Below, piece by piece: positions 443 through 7,270 of a stretch of DNA of 18,687 bases. Origin of the DNA: Candidatus Nitrosopumilus sp. GTDB lineage: Archaea > Thermoproteota > Nitrososphaeria > Nitrososphaerales > Nitrosopumilaceae. Under the pieces are notes generated by a model. The model ran no database searches. It saw only the letters and a program-made list of their open reading frames with translations, and was not told the origin of the DNA. The translations under genes were made by a program, and so were the position numbers. Where the stretch lies: contig JABHXI010000070.1 in assembly GCA_018657375.1 (NCBI GenBank), positions 1-18,687 of the forward strand, written 5' to 3'. Every line of letters begins with the position of its first letter. The stretch's first letter is position 1.

Positions 443-961
443 TTATTTTACTGTGACCAAACCTACTCTCCATGGATGTAACGAACAATAGTAATTGTAT
501 ACTCCCTCTTCTGTAAATTTAAACTCAAATGTTTCTCCTGTGTTTAACGGAACACTGTTGAATAATCCGATAATATTCCCAAATTCATCTTGGCTTTGCA
601 CTGTGTGTTGTACTATGTCATCATTAATCCATTGAACTGTGGTCATTGAATGTATTTCCAGATTAAGCGGTAAGTAAAAACCTCCACCCGAAATAACATA
701 ATTTCCATTTGGAATTATAATTTGTTCTAATTGATGTCTTTTTACTTTATCATCATTGTCCAATACCAGAATGTCGTTTTCAATTAAAAATTTAATTGAA
801 TTTAAAAATTCTGTCTCTGTAATTTCATCTTGTCCGTACCACAATGCATTATTTTTTATCCAATTAGGCACATTTTCTCCATTTACTAAATTTATTGAGG
901 ATGAAATTAAAAAGATTGAAAACACTACCCCCACGGATATTTTTAAAATAGATTGTTTCAT
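443..961 (-). CDS. Secreted cupredoxin (plastocyanin-like) protein
   Basis: A probable exported blue-copper-type electron carrier. The start is placed at the Met followed by KQSILKISVGVVFSIFLISS, a typical signal peptide, giving 172 residues. An AT box on the minus strand (986-994) lies about 26-28 bases ahead of this start, which fits a leaderless transcript; two upstream in-frame ATGs (982, 1009) only add residues before the signal. After the signal comes NVPNWIKNNALWYGQ and an acidic helical stretch, a module often seen in secreted thaumarchaeal proteins. The C-terminal half is the cupredoxin fold, with ligand candidates His119 (in QHTVQS), Cys159 and His162 (in YYCSLHPW). The usual axial Met after HPW is Arg165 here, so copper binding may be altered or lost. 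The gene diverges from a winged-helix regulator. Family assignment is firm; the redox role is inferred. Confidence 0.88.
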   Translation of the reverse strand: MKQSILKISVGVVFSIFLISSSINLVNGENVPNWIKNNALWYGQDEITETEFLNSIKFLIENDILVLDNDDKVKRHQLEQIIIPNGNYVISGGGFYLPLNLEIHSMTTVQWINDDIVQHTVQSQDEFGNIIGLFNSVPLNTGETFEFKFTEEGVYNYYCSLHPWRVGLVTVK

Positions 962-1016
962 TTTTAATTTTTTATCCACCATGACCAAATTATTGATACA
1001 TACATCCATTTCATTA

Positions 1017-1039
1017 ATTTCTAACTCTTAATTAGAAAT
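1017..1039. promoter_or_regulatory. Inverted repeat between divergent genes
   Basis: ATTTCTAA (1017-1024) and its exact complement TTAGAAAT (1032-1039) are separated by 7 bases. The site lies between the cupredoxin gene and the winged-helix gene, so a bound dimer could act on either. The half-site TTTCTAA also forms the outer arms of the two long palindromes at 17351 and 18015, where the arms are 8 bases apart. This may be an operator; an RNA hairpin is less likely in that position. Confidence 0.4.
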
Positions 1040-1082
1040 ATAACACAATGGAATACACTGCAAGACATTGCAAACATCAGTG

Positions 1083-1088
1083 TTATAA
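1083..1088 (+). promoter_or_regulatory. TATA box for the winged-helix gene
   Basis: TTATAA is centred about 25.5 bases before ATG 1111. This is the spacing expected for an archaeal leaderless transcript and is the main reason for choosing 1111 over ATG 1048. Confidence 0.4.
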
Positions 1089-1110
1089 CCCATTTTTCCA
1101 AAAATTGTAC

Positions 1111-1461
1111 ATGCAGGAATTAATTCAAACACAACAAATTAAGGATGAACTAAAAAAACAGATTATCTTAGAAAGTATTGCTGATAAATACAGTACATTG
1201 ATTTTAAAAAACACTATTGAAAAACCAAAATCTGCAATGATGATATCTGACGAGGAAAATATTCCTCTAAGTACTGTTTATAGAAAACTACAACGACTTT
1301 ATGATGGGAAGTTATTGGCAATTTCAGGCTCAATTAACAGGGATGGAAAAAAATATTTTCTATACATGAGTAAAATCAAAGACGTTACAATTCATTGTAA
1401 TTTAGAAGAAACTGTAATTGAATGTGTTTTAAATAACACAAAACAAGAAGACACCAATTAA
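1111..1461 (+). CDS. Winged-helix transcription regulator
   Basis: A 116-residue DNA-binding protein. Residues 9-35 form a basic amphipathic helix. Residues 40-70 hold the helix-turn-helix (SAMMISDEENIPLSTVYRKL, with IPLSTVYRKLQRLY as recognition helix), and GSINRDGKKYFLY (73-85) is the beta wing. This is the ArsR/MarR-like winged-helix layout common in thaumarchaeal regulators. An in-frame ATG at 1048 would add 21 residues of poor quality (three of them Cys or His pairs with no family look), so ATG 1111 with the TATA box 26 bases upstream is preferred. The gene is divergent from the cupredoxin gene and could regulate it. The ligand and target are unknown; the CxxxxxxxxxC pair late in the chain (Cys96, Cys105) could sense metal or redox state, but that is a guess. 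Confidence 0.75.
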   Translation: MQELIQTQQIKDELKKQIILESIADKYSTLILKNTIEKPKSAMMISDEENIPLSTVYRKLQRLYDGKLLAISGSINRDGKKYFLYMSKIKDVTIHCNLEETVIECVLNNTKQEDTN

Positions 1462-1483
1462 TATCAGACAGGAGAATATCATA

Positions 1484-2083
1484 TTGGCCGATAACATGGA
1501 TACTGGAAAAAGACAATCACACGTAACTAAAAAAGATCCCACCAGAAGTATCACTTACAGATTATCTGAAAAATTAATTGCAGAATTAGAAACAGAAGCA
1601 AGTCAAAAAGGCATATCTCAAAATGTGTTAGTTAAACAGATTTTAGAAAAATATGTTCAGTGGGACAGATTTTCCCAAAAAATTGGGTTAATTCCCGTAC
1701 CTGTAGGAATTTTACAATCATTGGGAGAGGATTTAGATGGACAAGAAATAGATGAAATAATTAATTTAATTTTTCCTACTATCAAAGATACGGTAATGTT
1801 CATCAAAGGTGGTTACGATCTAAAGCGATGTATTGAAACACTTGAAGATTACATGAGAGCTTCTGGAATGAATTCTGATCATAGAGTTAATGGAAATGTT
1901 CATTCATTTCTTATTCAACACGATTTGGGCACTAAATGGTCTGTATTCACTGAACAATTACTAAAACAGGTTTTTCGAAGTTTCTTACCGGATAAAGAAT
2001 TAAATTTTCAAACCACTGACTCGACTGTAATTTTGAATGTATCATTAGGATCTGAATTTAATGAACATGATTTTCAAAGTTGA
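1484..2083 (+). CDS. Ribbon-helix-helix protein with unknown C-terminal domain
   Basis: A 199-residue protein read from TTG 1484. GGAG at 1471-1474 lies 9 bases upstream, which supports this start over ATG 1496. Residues 21-58 (RSITYRLSEKLIAELETEAS, then GISQNVLVKQILEKYV) match the ribbon-helix-helix fold: a short strand that reads DNA followed by two helices. The remaining 140 residues are an alpha/beta domain I do not recognise. It holds a conserved-looking segment DHRVNGNVHSFLIQHDLGTK (132-151) with three His, and may bind a ligand or mediate assembly. It follows the winged-helix gene by 22 bases in the same direction, so the two regulators are probably co-transcribed. I infer a transcription factor; the target is unknown. 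Confidence 0.72.
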   Translation: MADNMDTGKRQSHVTKKDPTRSITYRLSEKLIAELETEASQKGISQNVLVKQILEKYVQWDRFSQKIGLIPVPVGILQSLGEDLDGQEIDEIINLIFPTIKDTVMFIKGGYDLKRCIETLEDYMRASGMNSDHRVNGNVHSFLIQHDLGTKWSVFTEQLLKQVFRSFLPDKELNFQTTDSTVILNVSLGSEFNEHDFQS

Positions 2084-2129
2084 AATTTAGTTTATCCATT
2101 GAAATACTCTCGTTTTATTTACTTGAATA

Positions 2130-2513
2130 GTGCAATTCAATCCCTACGTAAAAACTAAAAAAATTAAAGATGTGATGAAATCCACCATTCTCGCTTTAGA
2201 ATCATCGGCTACCGCATCTGATGCTGCTAAAATTATGGAAATACGTGATATTGAAGCCATTGTAGTTGTTGAAAACAAAAAATTTATTGGAATTGTTACT
2301 GATCGAGATTTTACGATAAAACTTGGTTCACACGCATACCCGATTGACACTCCAATTAATCGCCTAATGAGCTATCCTTTGATATCCATAGATCAAAATG
2401 CTGAAATCTCAGTTGCCCAAAATTTAATGAAAAAAAATAAAGTTAAGAGGTTGCCAGTAATATCCGAGAATGCGTTGCTAGGAATGGTTACTATGAATGA
2501 TATTCACATCTGA
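2130..2513 (+). CDS. CBS-domain pair protein
   Basis: A 127-residue stand-alone CBS pair (Bateman module), a soluble sensor that in this family usually binds AMP, ATP or S-adenosylmethionine. The first CBS motif spans about residues 12-66 (IKDVMKSTILALESSATASD through GIVTDRDF). The second spans about 77-127 (INRLMSYPLISIDQNAEIS through LPVISENALLGMVTMNDI). The two GIVTDRD/GMVTMND strands are the typical ligand-facing repeats. No catalytic domain is attached. The start is GTG 2130; the only internal ATG (2175) would cut into the first CBS strand. It sits 46 bases after the ribbon-helix-helix gene and is followed by an oligo-T terminator. What it regulates is not visible. Confidence 0.85.
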   Translation: MQFNPYVKTKKIKDVMKSTILALESSATASDAAKIMEIRDIEAIVVVENKKFIGIVTDRDFTIKLGSHAYPIDTPINRLMSYPLISIDQNAEISVAQNLMKKNKVKRLPVISENALLGMVTMNDIHI

Positions 2514-2652: not shown

Positions 2653-2746
2653 TATTTTCAGTTCTACGGGTACTTGTTAAATTTCATTTAAGATAGACAT
2701 GTTATTAGATCATCACTATATCGTTGAGAAACCATAAGGATCAATA

Positions 2747-2917
2747 AAAGTTGGTTAGTGTTGCGATAATGAACCAAAGTTCTTGATTGAATATCTGTGC
2801 GGAGATACAACTGAAAGTTGGTTAGTGTGTTCTACCTGTATCAAAGAAGACCTGTTTCAAAAATACATCAAAGAAAAACATTAACTCTAGGCACGAACCA
2901 TGTCCAACACTAACCAA
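2747..2917. repeat. Three-copy short repeat, third copy inverted
   Basis: The 15-mer AAAGTTGGTTAGTGT occurs at 2747-2761 and again, identical, at 2814-2828. The complement of its core plus two bases (CAACACTAACCAA) lies at 2905-2917. Copies one and three could pair as a 13-base stem enclosing about 140 bases. The second copy lies inside the coding remnant described at 2759-2884; the first overlaps its upstream stop codon. Confidence 0.45.
2759..2884 (+). pseudogene. Small cysteine-rich protein remnant
   Basis: An open frame of 41 codons follows an in-frame TAG (2756-2758) and ends at TAA. It has no ATG or GTG start; the only alternative start is TTG 2783, which would leave 34 residues. It begins CCDNEPKFLIEYLCGDTTES and continues to WLVCSTCIKE. 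The cysteine spacing, with a clean CxxC at positions 24 and 27, looks like a small zinc-binding protein and the composition is protein-like throughout. The missing start and the stop codon just upstream suggest a gene that has lost its 5' end, possibly through the short repeat that spans both places. It could instead be a chance frame. Confidence 0.35.
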
Positions 2918-3008
2918 AATTGACTAATGTCGTTAGAAACACCTCAAATAATCATATCAGTAAAAATTTAATCAAAAAAATGTCAATAGTTGGATTAAAG
3001 ATCATCAA

Positions 3009-3122
3009 TTAACTATTTGTCACTAGTGTTTCCAAAGATAATCCAAAATAGTCATCATTAGAATCATCAACAGAATTAATTAATTCCATTTTCAGCAATC
3101 TAAAATCTTTTTCTGATTTCAT
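3009..3122 (-). CDS. Possible 37-residue acidic microprotein
   Basis: A minus-strand frame from ATG (3122) to TAA encodes MKSEKDFRLLKMELINSVDD followed by SNDDYFGLSLETLVTNS. It has a basic amphipathic start and an acidic C-terminal half, with no membrane segment, cysteine or known motif. No clear ribosome binding site or strong TATA box precedes it. It lies in the 736-base stretch upstream of the helicase and points away from it. The composition argues for a real peptide, but a frame of this size can occur by chance in AT-rich DNA. Confidence 0.33.
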   Translation of the reverse strand: MKSEKDFRLLKMELINSVDDSNDDYFGLSLETLVTNS

Positions 3123-3169
3123 AATTAGATGAGAATCAACTTATGGATAATTCTCTGTTTTTAATGAAA

Positions 3170-3186
3170 GTAAGCTAATAGCTTAC
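3170..3186. promoter_or_regulatory. Palindrome upstream of the helicase operon
   Basis: GTAAGCTA (3170-3177) and TAGCTTAC (3179-3186) form a perfect 8-base dyad around a single A. It ends 63 bases before the helicase start and about 30 bases before its TATA-like box, so it is well placed as an operator. A second, purely AT dyad (AATAATT/AATTATT) follows at 3195-3208. Confidence 0.42.
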
Positions 3187-3216
3187 AGTGCATCAATAAT
3201 TAATTATTAAAAAATC

Positions 3217-3222
3217 CTTTTA
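3217..3222 (+). promoter_or_regulatory. TATA-like box of the helicase operon
   Basis: The AT-rich element around CTTTTA lies about 30 bases before ATG 3250, as expected for an archaeal promoter with a very short leader. No ribosome binding site precedes the start. Confidence 0.3.
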
Positions 3223-3249
3223 TGGCAAAAAAAAAGTACAGCAAAACAG

Positions 3250-5916
3250 ATGAAATTTTGTGAGAATTGTGAAACTAAATTATCACAAAATCACAAAGAT
3301 TTAGGAGCTCCATGGATTTGTCCAAAATGCAATCCAGAAAAAATAGTTGTAAGAAAGCCAACATACGGTGTAAATTATTCAGGAAGGACAAAACAATGTT
3401 CAAAGGGGTGTGGTTCAGAAATTTATTGGGATGAAGAATTTAAATCAGACAGTGGCAAATTTATTCCTCTTGATGCGAGAACGGATGAACCGCATAGTTG
3501 TAACGGTCCAGAAAGCACAAGCACATACTTTCCTGACGAAATAAGAAAAATAACAAAAAAAGTAATTCCACGTCCAATTACAGAAAAATTAAAAATTACA
3601 ATACCCGAGAGTGTTCTGTTTGATGTTAATAAAATTCCAAAATTAGAAATTGACAATGATGGAATTTTACATGAAATAGTAGAAGGTCATAGAAATCAAT
3701 CATTAGCAATAATAGATTACAAAAAAATAACAACATTAGAACCTGAAAAAATCCCAATAGAAAATCTAAAGGACGTATTATCGGAAAACATCATAGACGG
3801 GTTAAAAAAATATGGGTTTTCAGGAGTCCTACCGTTCCAAAATGAATCAATTCGTTCTATCTTAAAGGGGAATAATTCAATTATTTCAGCATCAACAGGT
3901 TCAGGTAAAACAGAGGCATTTGTAATACCAATTTTACAAAAAATATTAGAAAATCCAATAAAAGGCGTCTTTGTGTTACTAATCTATCCATTAAATGCAT
4001 TAATTGATGATCAAGTGTCAAAAATTTCAGATTTAATTCAAAAATGTAAATTAGAAAAAATTATTTCCACATATTCTATCCATGGAGGTCAAAGTTCAGA
4101 ATACAAGGATAAAATTATTTCAGAATCGTATGTAAAATCAATAATTCTTGCAACAAACTTTGATTTTATTAATTATCATTTAATTTTACAAGATAAAAAA
4201 TGGAATCAATTATTTAAAAACGCAAAAATAATTGTAATGGACGAATCACATTCGTATACCAGTTTTCACGGTTCTAATGTATACCATGTTTTAAAAAGAA
4301 TGAAAAACTACATGAACCAATTTCAAATAATTGGATCATCTGCAACATTAGATAACCCTAAAGAATTTTTTTCAAAAATGTTTGATTTACCAGAAAATTC
4401 TTTTTCTCATATTAAAAGTGAATTTAGAAGAAAACAAAACATGCATCAAATTTTTATAATGCCAAGAAAGTTTGGACAAAGAACTACAATGGAAATGGTT
4501 TCATCGATATGTTATAAAAATAATTCAAAGCAATTGGTATTTAGTAATACCCACAATGATGCAGAATTTTTAGCATCAAATGTAGAAGGGGCAAATGATG
4601 GAATTAGAATCCAAATTCATCGAGGGGGCCTAGATCAAAAAGATAGAAAATTGTATGAATTACAAATGAAAGAAGGGGAATTAGACATCCTATCATGCAC
4701 ACCCACATTAGAATTAGGCATAGATATTGGAAATGTGGATGTTGTTATTTCTGCATTCAAAAATGAATATGATTCGTTTATTCAAAGAATAGGTAGGGCA
4801 GGAAGAAAAGGTCAAAAATCATATGCAATTTGTGTATTTGATCCAGAGGATGCAGCATGCCATTATTTTGCACGAAATATTACATCATACCTTAAACAAA
4901 ATCACCGTGTTGAAATTAATAAAGACAATCCAATTATTTCAGAAAAGCACATTGCATCGATAGAAATTGAAAAACATGCTGCAGTTGAATCAGATAAATC
5001 AAAGTTTTTTGATTTTGCAAATAGTATCAATCTCAGAGGATCATCAGGAGAAATTGGGATTTTTTATAATTCAAAAAAAATAGGGACAAGAGATACACCT
5101 ACAGGGTATTATCAATTACATCAAAATGCAATTTATCATTTTAACAAACAAAATTATGAAGTAGAGTCAATAGTAAAAATTCAAAACGGAGCAAATGTAT
5201 ATTTAAAAAAATCTAGTGAAGTGCAAAAAATGACAATACCAGTTGTTAAGACATCATTAACACAATTGTCCGAAGAAAAAGCAATTAAAAAAGAAATCAA
5301 CTCCAAAACAAGAAAAATTTCTCTACGTTATGGATTAATTGACATAAAAAAAATAATTACAGGTTATCTAAAAGGCAACTACAATGATTCGCCAGATAAA
5401 TTTGAAACATTTGACGGGGATTCATCAACATCCTGGAATGATTTTAGTTGGAATTCAAAACATTATTCTACAAGTATTGTGATTCCATCAGAATTTACAT
5501 CAAAAATAAAAACAGACGGAAAGAAACCAATCATACTAGATTCAAAGATCCACACAATCACTCATGTTTTAGTTAATGCAAGTAAAATTTTAACAAAATC
5601 AGAATCGAACGACATTGATGCATATTATGAAAATGGGATAATTCATTTGTTCGATAACACATCAGATGGGTATAACGGGTGCAGCAAAATGATTTATGAT
5701 AATTTTGAAAATATTATGAACACATGTTTTGATTTAGTTAATGAATGTGATTGTCCTACAGATGAAAAACAGAAAAAACAAGTATTGCAAGGAGAAGAAT
5801 GGGGAGGATGTCCAAAATGTACCTTTACAACAAATTATTGTCAAACAAAAAATAAGAAACTATCAAAAAAAGATGCATTGGAATTCTTTTCAATTTTTAA
5901 AAAGGATAAAAAATGA
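3250..5916 (+). CDS. DExH helicase with zinc clusters, MrfA/Hrq1-like
   Basis: An 888-residue superfamily 2 helicase, probably a 3'-5' DNA translocase. Two N-terminal cysteine groups (Cys4, Cys7, Cys24, Cys27; then Cys50, Cys54, His82, Cys84) look like zinc ribbons. The helicase core has Walker A ASTGSGKT (214-221), motif Ia IYPLNAL (245-251), DESH (331-334), SAT (364-366), motif V TPTLELGIDIG (484-494) and QRIGRAGR (512-519). Residues 760-888 resemble DUF1998, with Cys833, Cys835, Cys854, Cys857 and Cys864. This order matches bacterial MrfA (mitomycin repair) and the Hrq1/RecQ4-related helicases, though the chain is longer than MrfA because of the N-terminal ribbons. It overlaps the following HD gene by four bases (ATGA), so the two are translationally coupled. 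DNA repair is the family role; defence is possible since related DUF1998 helicases occur in defence operons. All catalytic motifs are intact. Confidence 0.88.
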   Translation: MKFCENCETKLSQNHKDLGAPWICPKCNPEKIVVRKPTYGVNYSGRTKQCSKGCGSEIYWDEEFKSDSGKFIPLDARTDEPHSCNGPESTSTYFPDEIRKITKKVIPRPITEKLKITIPESVLFDVNKIPKLEIDNDGILHEIVEGHRNQSLAIIDYKKITTLEPEKIPIENLKDVLSENIIDGLKKYGFSGVLPFQNESIRSILKGNNSIISASTGSGKTEAFVIPILQKILENPIKGVFVLLIYPLNALIDDQVSKISDLIQKCKLEKIISTYSIHGGQSSEYKDKIISESYVKSIILATNFDFINYHLILQDKKWNQLFKNAKIIVMDESHSYTSFHGSNVYHVLKRMKNYMNQFQIIGSSATLDNPKEFFSKMFDLPENSFSHIKSEFRRKQNMHQIFIMPRKFGQRTTMEMVSSICYKNNSKQLVFSNTHNDAEFLASNVEGANDGIRIQIHRGGLDQKDRKLYELQMKEGELDILSCTPTLELGIDIGNVDVVISAFKNEYDSFIQRIGRAGRKGQKSYAICVFDPEDAACHYFARNITSYLKQNHRVEINKDNPIISEKHIASIEIEKHAAVESDKSKFFDFANSINLRGSSGEIGIFYNSKKIGTRDTPTGYYQLHQNAIYHFNKQNYEVESIVKIQNGANVYLKKSSEVQKMTIPVVKTSLTQLSEEKAIKKEINSKTRKISLRYGLIDIKKIITGYLKGNYNDSPDKFETFDGDSSTSWNDFSWNSKHYSTSIVIPSEFTSKIKTDGKKPIILDSKIHTITHVLVNASKILTKSESNDIDAYYENGIIHLFDNTSDGYNGCSKMIYDNFENIMNTCFDLVNECDCPTDEKQKKQVLQGEEWGGCPKCTFTTNYCQTKNKKLSKKDALEFFSIFKKDKK

Positions 5917-6527
5917 CTTTATTAAAAAATGCAGAACTATTTGCAAAATCAAAACATGCAGGTAAATTAAAAAAAAGCGGAATTACGTATTCAAAACATT
6001 TGGAAGAAGTTGTCAATAGACTCAAAAGTTTAGGAGTGATAGATGAGGAAGTGTTGTGTACCGGTTGGTTGCACGATATTTTAGAAGATACAGATACAAG
6101 TTTTGATGAATTGTTTGAAAAATTTGGAAGAAGGATTGCGGTGCTAACATTATCATTAACAAAAACTAAATTTGTAATAGATACAAATGATAATTCAACA
6201 TTAACATTAACAAAAAAGAAAACATTATCAAAAAAACAAAGAGAAAAAAATTATGGGATAAAACTTAAAGAATCAGAGGTTGATGCAAAAATAATCAAAT
6301 TATGCGATATTTCAGCAAATTTAGGAAATTTAAAGAATCAAGTTATATCTAAAACTAAAAAAAGAAAGGTTCTCAGAGAATTAAGATATTATCTTTCAAT
6401 AATTCAAAAAGACATAATGGAAGACGCCAAATATCAAAATGCAACAATATTACTAGAAACAATTAATCAAAATTTGAAAATTCAAACTCAAACCGTATCT
6501 AAAAGTAAAGAAAATAGGTTAAAATAA
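5913..6527 (+). CDS. HD-domain hydrolase, SpoT/MESH1-like
   Basis: A 204-residue metal-dependent phosphohydrolase. The motifs of the (p)ppGpp hydrolase domain are all present in order: His15 followed by AGK, Tyr26-x2-His29, GWLHDILEDT (51-60, metal ligands His54 and Asp55, catalytic Glu58 and Asp59), FGRRIAVLTLSLTK (71-84), RExxY (110-114) and KLCDISANLGN (129-139, metal ligand Asp132). Bacterial SpoT hydrolases act on (p)ppGpp; the stand-alone animal enzyme MESH1 also acts on NADPH. No synthetase domain is attached. A Lys/Thr-rich loop at 90-112 is unusual, and the Lys-rich tail (190-204) may contact nucleic acid. Start ATG 5913 overlaps the helicase stop, which indicates one operon and a shared function. 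The true substrate is unknown. Confidence 0.85.
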   Translation: MTLLKNAELFAKSKHAGKLKKSGITYSKHLEEVVNRLKSLGVIDEEVLCTGWLHDILEDTDTSFDELFEKFGRRIAVLTLSLTKTKFVIDTNDNSTLTLTKKKTLSKKQREKNYGIKLKESEVDAKIIKLCDISANLGNLKNQVISKTKKRKVLRELRYYLSIIQKDIMEDAKYQNATILLETINQNLKIQTQTVSKSKENRLK

Positions 6528-6592: not shown

Positions 6593-6673
6593 ATGGATTT
6601 AAAGAAAATGCTTTCAAAGTTTTGCATAATGAAAAAAGTACGCGATAAAGCAAATGAAACAGACGAAAAATAA
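6593..6673 (+). CDS. Possible 26-residue basic microprotein
   Basis: An ATG-started frame encodes MDLKKMLSKFCIMKKVRDKA followed by NETDEK. A TTAAATA element centred near 6567 lies about 26 bases upstream, which fits the leaderless pattern seen for neighbouring genes. There is no membrane segment. It lies 65 bases after the HD gene and converges on another possible microprotein at 6693-6812. Only the composition and the upstream AT box support it. Confidence 0.28.
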   Translation: MDLKKMLSKFCIMKKVRDKANETDEK

Positions 6674-6853: not shown

Positions 6854-7270
6854 TTAATCAACATCGATAATAAAAAGTCCCTGTGTTTGGGGATTTTGTA
6901 ACTGTAAAACCATTTCTCTAGGCAATAGATCGGATGCCTTATCACATTTTACAGATAATGTCCTAGGACAAGTGAAATCACTTTTTCTTAATACAATATC
7001 CTCGCTATGAGTTAGAGCCAAGTTAGGATGACCTCGTCCTTCTAAATTAAATTCATGGTTGCCGACAATAATTGAAAAACGGATCAGAGTTTCAGGATTT
7101 CTTAATTTATTTTTTAATTCATCAGGTAATTCAACACAAGAAGAGCTAGCATTAACGCCAACAATACAGTCACCTCGAGGTGTCAAATGAGATTCTTTTG
7201 TAATTTCTATTGTTTTTTTATGATTTGATCTGATGTTTTCGTGTCCAAAAAATTTAATCTCGTATTTCAT
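6854..7270 (-). CDS. DUF371 family protein
   Basis: A 138-residue protein matching the archaeal DUF371 family in length and motifs: FFGHENIRSNHKKTIEITKE (7-26), LTPRGDCIVGVNA (29-41), GRGHPNLALTHSEDIVLRKS (78-97) and CPRTLSVKCDKASDLLPREM (101-120). The invariant-looking Asp34-Cys35, Gly-His-Pro (80-82) and Lys-Ala (111-112) positions suggest a binding or catalytic site, but no reaction is known to me. It is cytosolic, with no signal or membrane segment. Start ATG 7270 lies 26 bases from the AT box shared with psmA on the other side. Divergence from the proteasome gene hints at co-regulation only. Confidence 0.83.
   Translation of the reverse strand: MKYEIKFFGHENIRSNHKKTIEITKESHLTPRGDCIVGVNASSSCVELPDELKNKLRNPETLIRFSIIVGNHEFNLEGRGHPNLALTHSEDIVLRKSDFTCPRTLSVKCDKASDLLPREMVLQLQNPQTQGLFIIDVD

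Follow-up and report, generated by a model that had tools for sequence, protein, structure and literature searches.

YprA-family helicases are divided into a branch related to DNA repair, found with MrfB or without a conserved context, and a branch with particular partner genes that serves defence, and the DISARM, Druantia, Dpd and ARMADA systems are also centred on helicases of this family, according to PMC12458937. Small alarmone hydrolases (SAHs) are reported in a few archaea, where alarmone enzymes are rare, in a paper whose text mentions neither 'Thaumarch' nor 'Nitrosopumilus' (PMC3153485). In other papers, (p)ppGpp was undetected in both archaea tested (PMC8646023), a putative SpoT/RelA gene of Nitrososphaera viennensis was upregulated under carbon limitation (PMC12542715), and hydrolysis of (p)ppGpp, pppApp and NADPH is described for an orphan SAH from a bacterium (PMC9765508). 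Here we analyse a locus in which relatives of these two protein families are neighbours. Our window, by which we mean the whole stretch of 18,687 nucleotides, is contig C72 of G000, a draft genome at 75% completeness from an archaeon of Nitrosopumilus type. On its forward strand it encodes a YprA/MrfA-family DExH helicase of 888 amino acids (HEL, 3250..5916), a 204-amino-acid protein with the Mesh1-like SAH fold (HD, 5913..6527) and a conserved microprotein of 26 amino acids (MP, 6593..6673). The clustering of the three genes in one archaeal group suggests an undescribed joint function, and no description of a joint HEL/HD/MP system was found in the literature searched.

Clustering of the helicase, the Mesh1-like protein and the microprotein

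A first-pass annotation of this DNA had pointed to an intact helicase gene that overlaps an HD hydrolase gene by four bases. Both frames are present and intact at 3250-5916 and 5913-6527, and the ATGA stop/start overlap (5913..5916, + strand) is identical in 11 of 11 genomes with this arrangement, the operon genomes. Our comparisons drew on a family sample of 250 Nitrosopumilaceae-type genomes, a genus sample of 95 with a high-quality subset of 56, and a phylum sample of 398; in draft genomes an apparent gene absence may be an assembly gap. HEL orthologs, defined by at least 60% identity, were found in 59 of the 95 genomes of the genus, a few of them fragmentary, and in G012, which belongs to another genus, giving 60 HEL-carrying genomes. 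Among the matches listed, from which the HEL and HD positions behind our linkage and MP-proximity counts are taken, HEL and HD lie within 3 kb of each other in 16 of these 60: the 11 operon genomes and five others (G170, G123, G101, G084 and G012). The three genes are grouped together in G012 as well. Looking outward from HD, HEL at 55% identity or more occurs in the flank of 13 of 80 named Genome Taxonomy Database (GTDB) HD loci.

The two genes also tend to occur in the same genomes. Across the 56 high-quality genus genomes, both are present in 36, HEL alone in four, HD alone in six and neither in 10 (Fisher p=1.3e-4). Pagel's test, run on the species tree for 64 genomes of at least 85% completeness, returned p=0.005 for HEL and HD, p=0.0014 for HD and MP, and p=0.065 for HEL and MP, the first two being the strongest signals among six gene pairs tested. 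Four variants of the HEL-HD test gave p=0.012, 0.040, 0.005 and 0.012, and the observed likelihood ratio was reached in none of 60 simulations under independence, with the root state fixed as both genes present. The co-occurrence signal is of moderate strength. With 11 operon genomes, five further genomes in which the genes lie within 3 kb, and a tree-corrected association, the coupling of the pair extends beyond a single genome; adjacency in this genome alone, which the first-pass annotation said would tell against a joint system, is not what is seen.

The pair had further been taken for an inserted module, and the surrounding DNA bears this out. One edge of the insertion junction is marked by a fixed neighbour, the DUF371 gene (6854..7270, - strand; PF04027), which is present in 79 of 95 genus genomes and in 56 of 56 high-quality ones. 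Of the 63 genomes of the genus in which the c14-DUF371 gap was measurable, 49 contain none of the three genes there, five have MP alone, two have HD and MP, and seven have all three. Empty junctions have a median length of 250 bp, and only four of the 49 exceed 500 bp. All three genes also lie at the junction in G000, G120 and G125, but c14 is missing from the stretch in these genomes. The two junctions with HD and MP belong to G115 (L082; HEL on another contig) and G087 (L067; HEL not found).

Our species tree comprises 73 of the 95 genus genomes (the 79 with DUF371, less six of short sequence). It unites the operon clade with G115 and the MP-only genomes (support 0.92); branching within this group is poorly supported (0.51). 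Because the junction contents are nested and the species tree groups these genomes together, MP and HD reached the junction before HEL, and HEL came last. Either MP or HD may have been first, or HD may have been lost again in the MP-only genomes; a strict order of MP, HD and HEL was rejected, as G115 has HD and MP while its sister group has MP alone, and only the late arrival of HEL was kept. G087 is nested in the operon clade, so its lack of HEL is a loss, and the reading frame of its HD is disrupted around residue 160. The locus is also a traceable example of gene-cluster assembly at a single junction.

Two possible microproteins had been proposed downstream of the pair, one of which holds up well. 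The MP frame (6593..6673, + strand) is open and free of indels in 10 of 10 operon-type loci, with 57, 32 and 353 pairwise differences at codon positions 1, 2 and 3 among those loci. A profile search detected MP in 101 of the 250 family genomes, 64 of them among the 95 of the genus; the family has no match in Pfam or NCBIfam, and MP is a newly recognised conserved microprotein. The other proposed frame was discarded, being interrupted by stops in three of 10 relatives, and the opposite strand of the same stretch has no frame open throughout.

Beyond the operon, MP recurs near the same two genes. Our proximity count covers 94 of 109 MP places, leaving out 15 weak, second-copy or other-genus rows. 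In 17 genomes outside the operon clade, MP is no more than 1 kb from HEL: 30-33 bp downstream in five (G118, G149, G151, G174 and G012), 106-113 bp upstream and divergent in eight (G133, G113, G134, G138, G086, G158, G092 and G136), and 145-788 bp away in four (G089, G173, G099 and G148). In six others (G087, G115, G126, G131, G153 and G117) it lies within 1.5 kb of HD with HEL not nearby. At 52 of the 94 places, no HEL, HD or DUF371 falls inside 5 kb among the matches listed, a figure based on 27 DUF371 places out of the 79 genus genomes with this gene. MP is probably a third component of the HEL/HD cluster.

Conservation of the proteins and decay of the HD active site

Pfam, a search for solved relatives and the ortholog alignment agree on the identity of HEL. 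The DEAD (PF00270), Helicase_C (PF00271) and MZB/DUF1998 (PF09369) matches all exceed the Pfam cut-offs; the MrfA Zn-binding (MZB)/DUF1998 region (residues 771-858; 5560..5823, + strand) scores 28.3 bits against a cut-off of 24.2. The closest solved structure by sequence is MrfA/YprA 6znp (E 3.6e-35). Motifs I, II, III, V and VI of helicase superfamily 2 (SF2) are conserved in the 57 aligned orthologs, apart from a gap at motif I in one row and X in parts of V and VI in another. The extra N-terminal cysteine clusters that had been noticed on this MrfA/Hrq1-like helicase (residues 4-84; 3259..3501, + strand) recur among its orthologs: Cys 4, 7, 24, 27, 50, 54 and 84 are conserved in 55 of 57 orthologs, those covering the region, and the remaining two are gapped there. 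Cys 833, 835, 854, 857 and 864 are kept in 55-56 of 57. The ratio of nonsynonymous to synonymous substitution rates (dN/dS) is 0.03-0.13 over 15 pairs. An AlphaFold2 model of HEL had a mean confidence score (pLDDT) of 46, too low to judge the OB-CON-DUF1998 canopy over the RecA domains.

HD matches Pfam HD_4 (E 3.1e-11), and a profile of 34 HD orthologs has Drosophila Mesh1 (3nqw, E 1.3e-20) and human Mesh1 (E 5.2e-20) as its top matches. Its AlphaFold2 model reaches a pLDDT of 90.7, and ranks 1-5 of a Foldseek search of the Protein Data Bank are all Mesh1/MESH1. HD has the RelA/SpoT homologue (RSH)-type HD fold and no synthetase domain. Family-specific conserved residues are W52, C131 and S134. 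A 17-residue insertion at about residues 82-98 (6156..6206, + strand), modelled as a beta-hairpin with strands at residues 86-91 and 97-102, is found in 13 of 13 operon-type HDs vs none of 84 others, and in 120 of 120 close database relatives of the window HD. The 13 include the HDs of G087 and G101-C24, neither of which has HEL alongside. A further HD paralog, about 38-41% identical, is encoded elsewhere in the genomes of several operon-clade members (G094:C2, G100:C9, G103:C4, G142:C12, G096:C4 and G120:C90).

As the first-pass annotation had stated, every catalytic residue of the (p)ppGpp hydrolase domain is in place in the window HD: all seven RSH/Mesh1 positions, H29, H54, D55, E58, D59, D132 and N136, are present, among them the metal/catalytic motif HDxxED (residues 54-59; 6072..6089, + strand), which is changed in many relatives. 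We tallied the active site in 97 HDs with a fetched locus, among them a few second copies and five g16 proteins that diverge strongly from the rest; most of the paralogs of about 39% identity are outside this set. The seven-residue set is complete in 35 of the 97, and at least one residue is missing in 62. D59 (MESH1 D66) is altered most frequently, being kept in 44 of 97 and replaced by N (19), K (12), H (8), Q (5), Y (4), E (3), G (1) or S (1). H29 is kept in 91, D132 in 89 and N136 in 90. Among operon HDs the site is intact in G000, G120, G094 and G165, and seven of 11 lack the full set (G125, G142, G171, G103, G085, G096 and G100). Since all seven residues are present in 96 of the 101 database proteins that share 90% identity or more with the window HD, the window's own lineage probably retains a working catalytic site.

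The degraded proteins are not decaying freely. Among HD pairs, dN/dS is 0.03-0.19 for the 20 compared and 0.07-0.19 for the 14 whose two members are each missing some of the seven residues; purifying selection acts on HD even where its active site is degraded. The K found at D59 in 12 of 97 HDs is the same substitution as MESH1 D66K, which according to a review (PMC9894426) is without catalytic activity and was crystallised with NADPH, and the Foldseek match titles include a second MESH1 D66K structure, with phosphoadenosine phosphosulfate (PAPS). A D66K-type substitution in a MESH1 protein that still binds is our ground for proposing, by analogy, that in degraded lineages HD may bind its ligand without catalysing.

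At the cut-offs used, HD has a match in 167 and HEL in 208 of the 250 family genomes; the HEL matches listed outside the genus, except that of G012, are paralogs of about 31-39% identity. In the phylum sample 51 of 398 genomes have HD matches, 50 in this family and one, weak, elsewhere. The (p)ppGpp synthetase domain PF04607 occurs in only eight of 250 family genomes (loci L102-L109) and was not found in the G000 draft, which is 75% complete. An HD family present in 167 genomes, usually without a synthetase and often without an intact site, needs another role. That hydrolysis is the point of the system, as had been supposed, is therefore not upheld.

Accounts of the cluster and its surroundings

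We tentatively propose, as the account that we favour though at less than even chances, that the locus is a three-gene accessory module of Nitrosopumilus-type archaea, in which a helicase is joined by a nucleotide-binding regulatory partner, with MP as an accessory. HEL would be a DNA-repair-type YprA/MrfA helicase with a role in DNA maintenance. HD, co-translated with HEL, would bind a 2'/3'-phosphorylated purine nucleotide of the ppGpp, NADPH, phosphoadenosine phosphate (PAP)/PAPS or coenzyme A class, and would regulate or anchor HEL by physical interaction; its hydrolytic step would be dispensable and lost many times, though probably not in the window's own lineage. MP would be a 26-amino-acid accessory peptide, and in one clade the three genes would have been united between c14 and DUF371, MP and HD earlier and HEL last. 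A more specific form, in which the three products make up a new complex where HD gates the helicase in response to a phosphorylated nucleotide or cofactor that it senses, the hairpin being a docking element in one clade, strikes us as rather unlikely. If the link between HEL and HD is true, nucleotide or cofactor sensing is tied to DNA maintenance in abundant marine archaea; if HD is a regulatory subunit, marine ammonia-oxidising archaea have repurposed an alarmone hydrolase for helicase control.

Several observations weigh against this proposal. HEL and HD are separate in 34 of the 60 HEL genomes, 25 times on different contigs of drafts and nine times on the same contig at a linear distance of 0.48-1.48 Mb, and 10 of the 60 have no HD among the matches listed (G151 and G159 of these have weaker matches). 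Unrelated neighbours elsewhere had been expected to speak against a joint system, and they are seen in part, since most HEL genomes have the two genes apart. The operon is a single evolutionary event, and the gene order c16, c63, HD, HEL, with HD and HEL convergent, is common to G012 and G123/G170/G101, with a convergent pair in G084 too; the non-operon arrangements may therefore be one ancestral island, and we count two arrangement classes, not four. HD is found in 10 further family genera without a HEL ortholog. A control, the accessory nuclease c49, co-varies somewhat with HEL (p=0.063) and MP (p=0.035), the value for HD being p=0.13, so the co-occurrence signal may partly reflect shared genome-content effects. 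The metal ligand H54 is lost in six of the seven degraded operon HDs (the exception being G125), and ligand binding may be weakened there. The HD of G087, a genome in which no HEL was found, keeps the seven residues and the hairpin, though its frame is broken. Finally, degraded HDs are found in 37 of 48 HEL carriers vs two of nine genomes without HEL (Fisher p=0.003), but the tree-corrected p is 0.11 and we dropped the claim that catalytic decay depends on HEL.

The position of G012 is of a different kind. The HEL tree nests it in the genus, next to G084 and others (support 0.98), and the HD tree joins it to G084, G127 and G104 (support 0.61), placements that would fit, without proving, a joint transfer of the two genes.

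The serious rival is clustering without function. HEL (an accessory repair helicase), HD (an accessory orphan SAH) and MP would be independent genes of variable islands that came by chance to a single permissive junction, with vertical inheritance afterwards, an account that we regard as quite possible. The separation of HEL and HD in most HEL genomes, the genera that have HD without this HEL and the borderline signals of c49 all favour it, and so does the setting of MP elsewhere: of 20 MP loci checked that are near neither HEL nor HD, 15 lie beside the trp operon or c39-c49, a region that also houses HEL in many genomes, so that the closeness of MP and HEL may partly be ancestral gene order. 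It accounts less well for a junction that usually measures about 250 bp and is devoid of all three genes in 49 of 63 genomes, yet received all of them in one group, for the ATGA overlap kept in every operon genome, for HEL-HD and HD-MP being the strongest of six paired signals, or for a hairpin confined to operon-type HDs.

A second alternative, which we find improbable, is that the true partners of HEL are MP and/or c49 at the trp-operon island (cf. MrfA and MrfB), HD being a late neighbour in one clade. c49 is a PD-(D/E)XK nuclease (PF12705; L073:11343-12020) that adjoins c39 in this island and is near HEL and MP in many genomes, and the tight spacing of MP, downstream of HEL in five genomes and divergent from it in eight, points the same way. 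Against it, a search of the 11 operon genomes found no close c49 ortholog, of 73% identity or more; eight have only a copy of 50-52% identity, and no copy was found in G000, G125 and G165, all drafts less than 76% complete. The HEL-c49 and HEL-MP associations are also weaker than that of HEL and HD.

The first-pass annotation had favoured a damage or invader response, and our search for defence features did not support it. HD has no PADLOC match; those of HEL are partial and cover the helicase core only (best BrxHI, E 3e-48). Defence models run on five flanking genes gave weak matches of the winged helix-turn-helix (wHTH) gene to CARF3/Csa3-type models and none for the other four. One IMG/VR scan per protein, sensitive to close relatives only, returned 11 loci for HD, all of at most 38% identity, and no close relative of HEL, and a viral origin was set aside. 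An active hydrolase that destroys a signal nucleotide while a DNA translocase answers damage or viruses is the least probable account, one that the seven residues of the window HD and its close variants, the activities of the bacterial orphan SAH and the place of YprA helicases in several defence systems recommend, but that fits intact lineages only, finds few synthetases to work with, and meets no defence partner among the genes tested and no close viral relative of HEL.

Upstream of HEL lies a candidate promoter or leader (3022..3249, + strand) whose DNA is 71-85% identical among operon-clade loci. The non-coding DNA on this side of the pair had been called a structured region, which is true to a modest extent: it is only modestly more stable than its shuffles (z -2.79, 20 shuffles), and no known RNA was recognised at Rfam gathering thresholds. 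Farther upstream, a 250-bp non-coding element (window 2680-2930) contains two copies of AAAGTTGGTTAGTGT plus one inverted copy and has matches in four other genomes of 95 (G142 at 84% identity, G171 and G144 at 71-72%, and G120 over 43 bp); it is possibly a small RNA gene or a small mobile element. At window 443-2513, cupredoxin, wHTH, ribbon-helix-helix (RHH) and CBS genes replace the c14-c15 of relatives, a difference in gene content which indicates that the HEL-upstream side has been rearranged in G000.

Comparison with described systems

Cas3 is an SF2 helicase with an HD nuclease, and an SF2 helicase beside an HD-fold protein recalls it. Here, however, the HD is of the RSH/SAH type, and the only CRISPR-type matches are the weak ones of the wHTH gene to CARF3/Csa3. 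The partners of DISARM, Druantia, Dpd and ARMADA (a PglX-like methyltransferase, a PLD or Vsr nuclease, a second helicase) are absent from the window neighbours scanned (cupredoxin, wHTH, RHH, CBS, HD and DUF371), and an MrfB-type 3'-5' exonuclease is likewise absent from these neighbours, no genome-wide search having been made. A toxSAS-SAH toxin-antitoxin pair needs a synthetase, and PF04607 was not detected in the incomplete G000 draft.

With Mesh1 and the SAHs, the window HD has in common the HD_4 domain, the fold and all seven catalytic residues; unlike them, its family has W52, C131 and S134, the hairpin in operon-type members and recurrent catalytic loss. HEL is closest to MrfA/YprA, the mitomycin repair helicase of Bacillus subtilis and its 'YprA-only' branch. 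Like them it combines an SF2 core with a C-terminal DUF1998/MZB zinc domain, and at the HEL loci examined its gene context is variable, as in that branch. By context and by its best solved relative, HEL fits the DNA-repair YprA branch, as a provisional assignment. Unlike MrfA/YprA, it has extra N-terminal cysteine clusters, a Mesh1-like partner and a microprotein.

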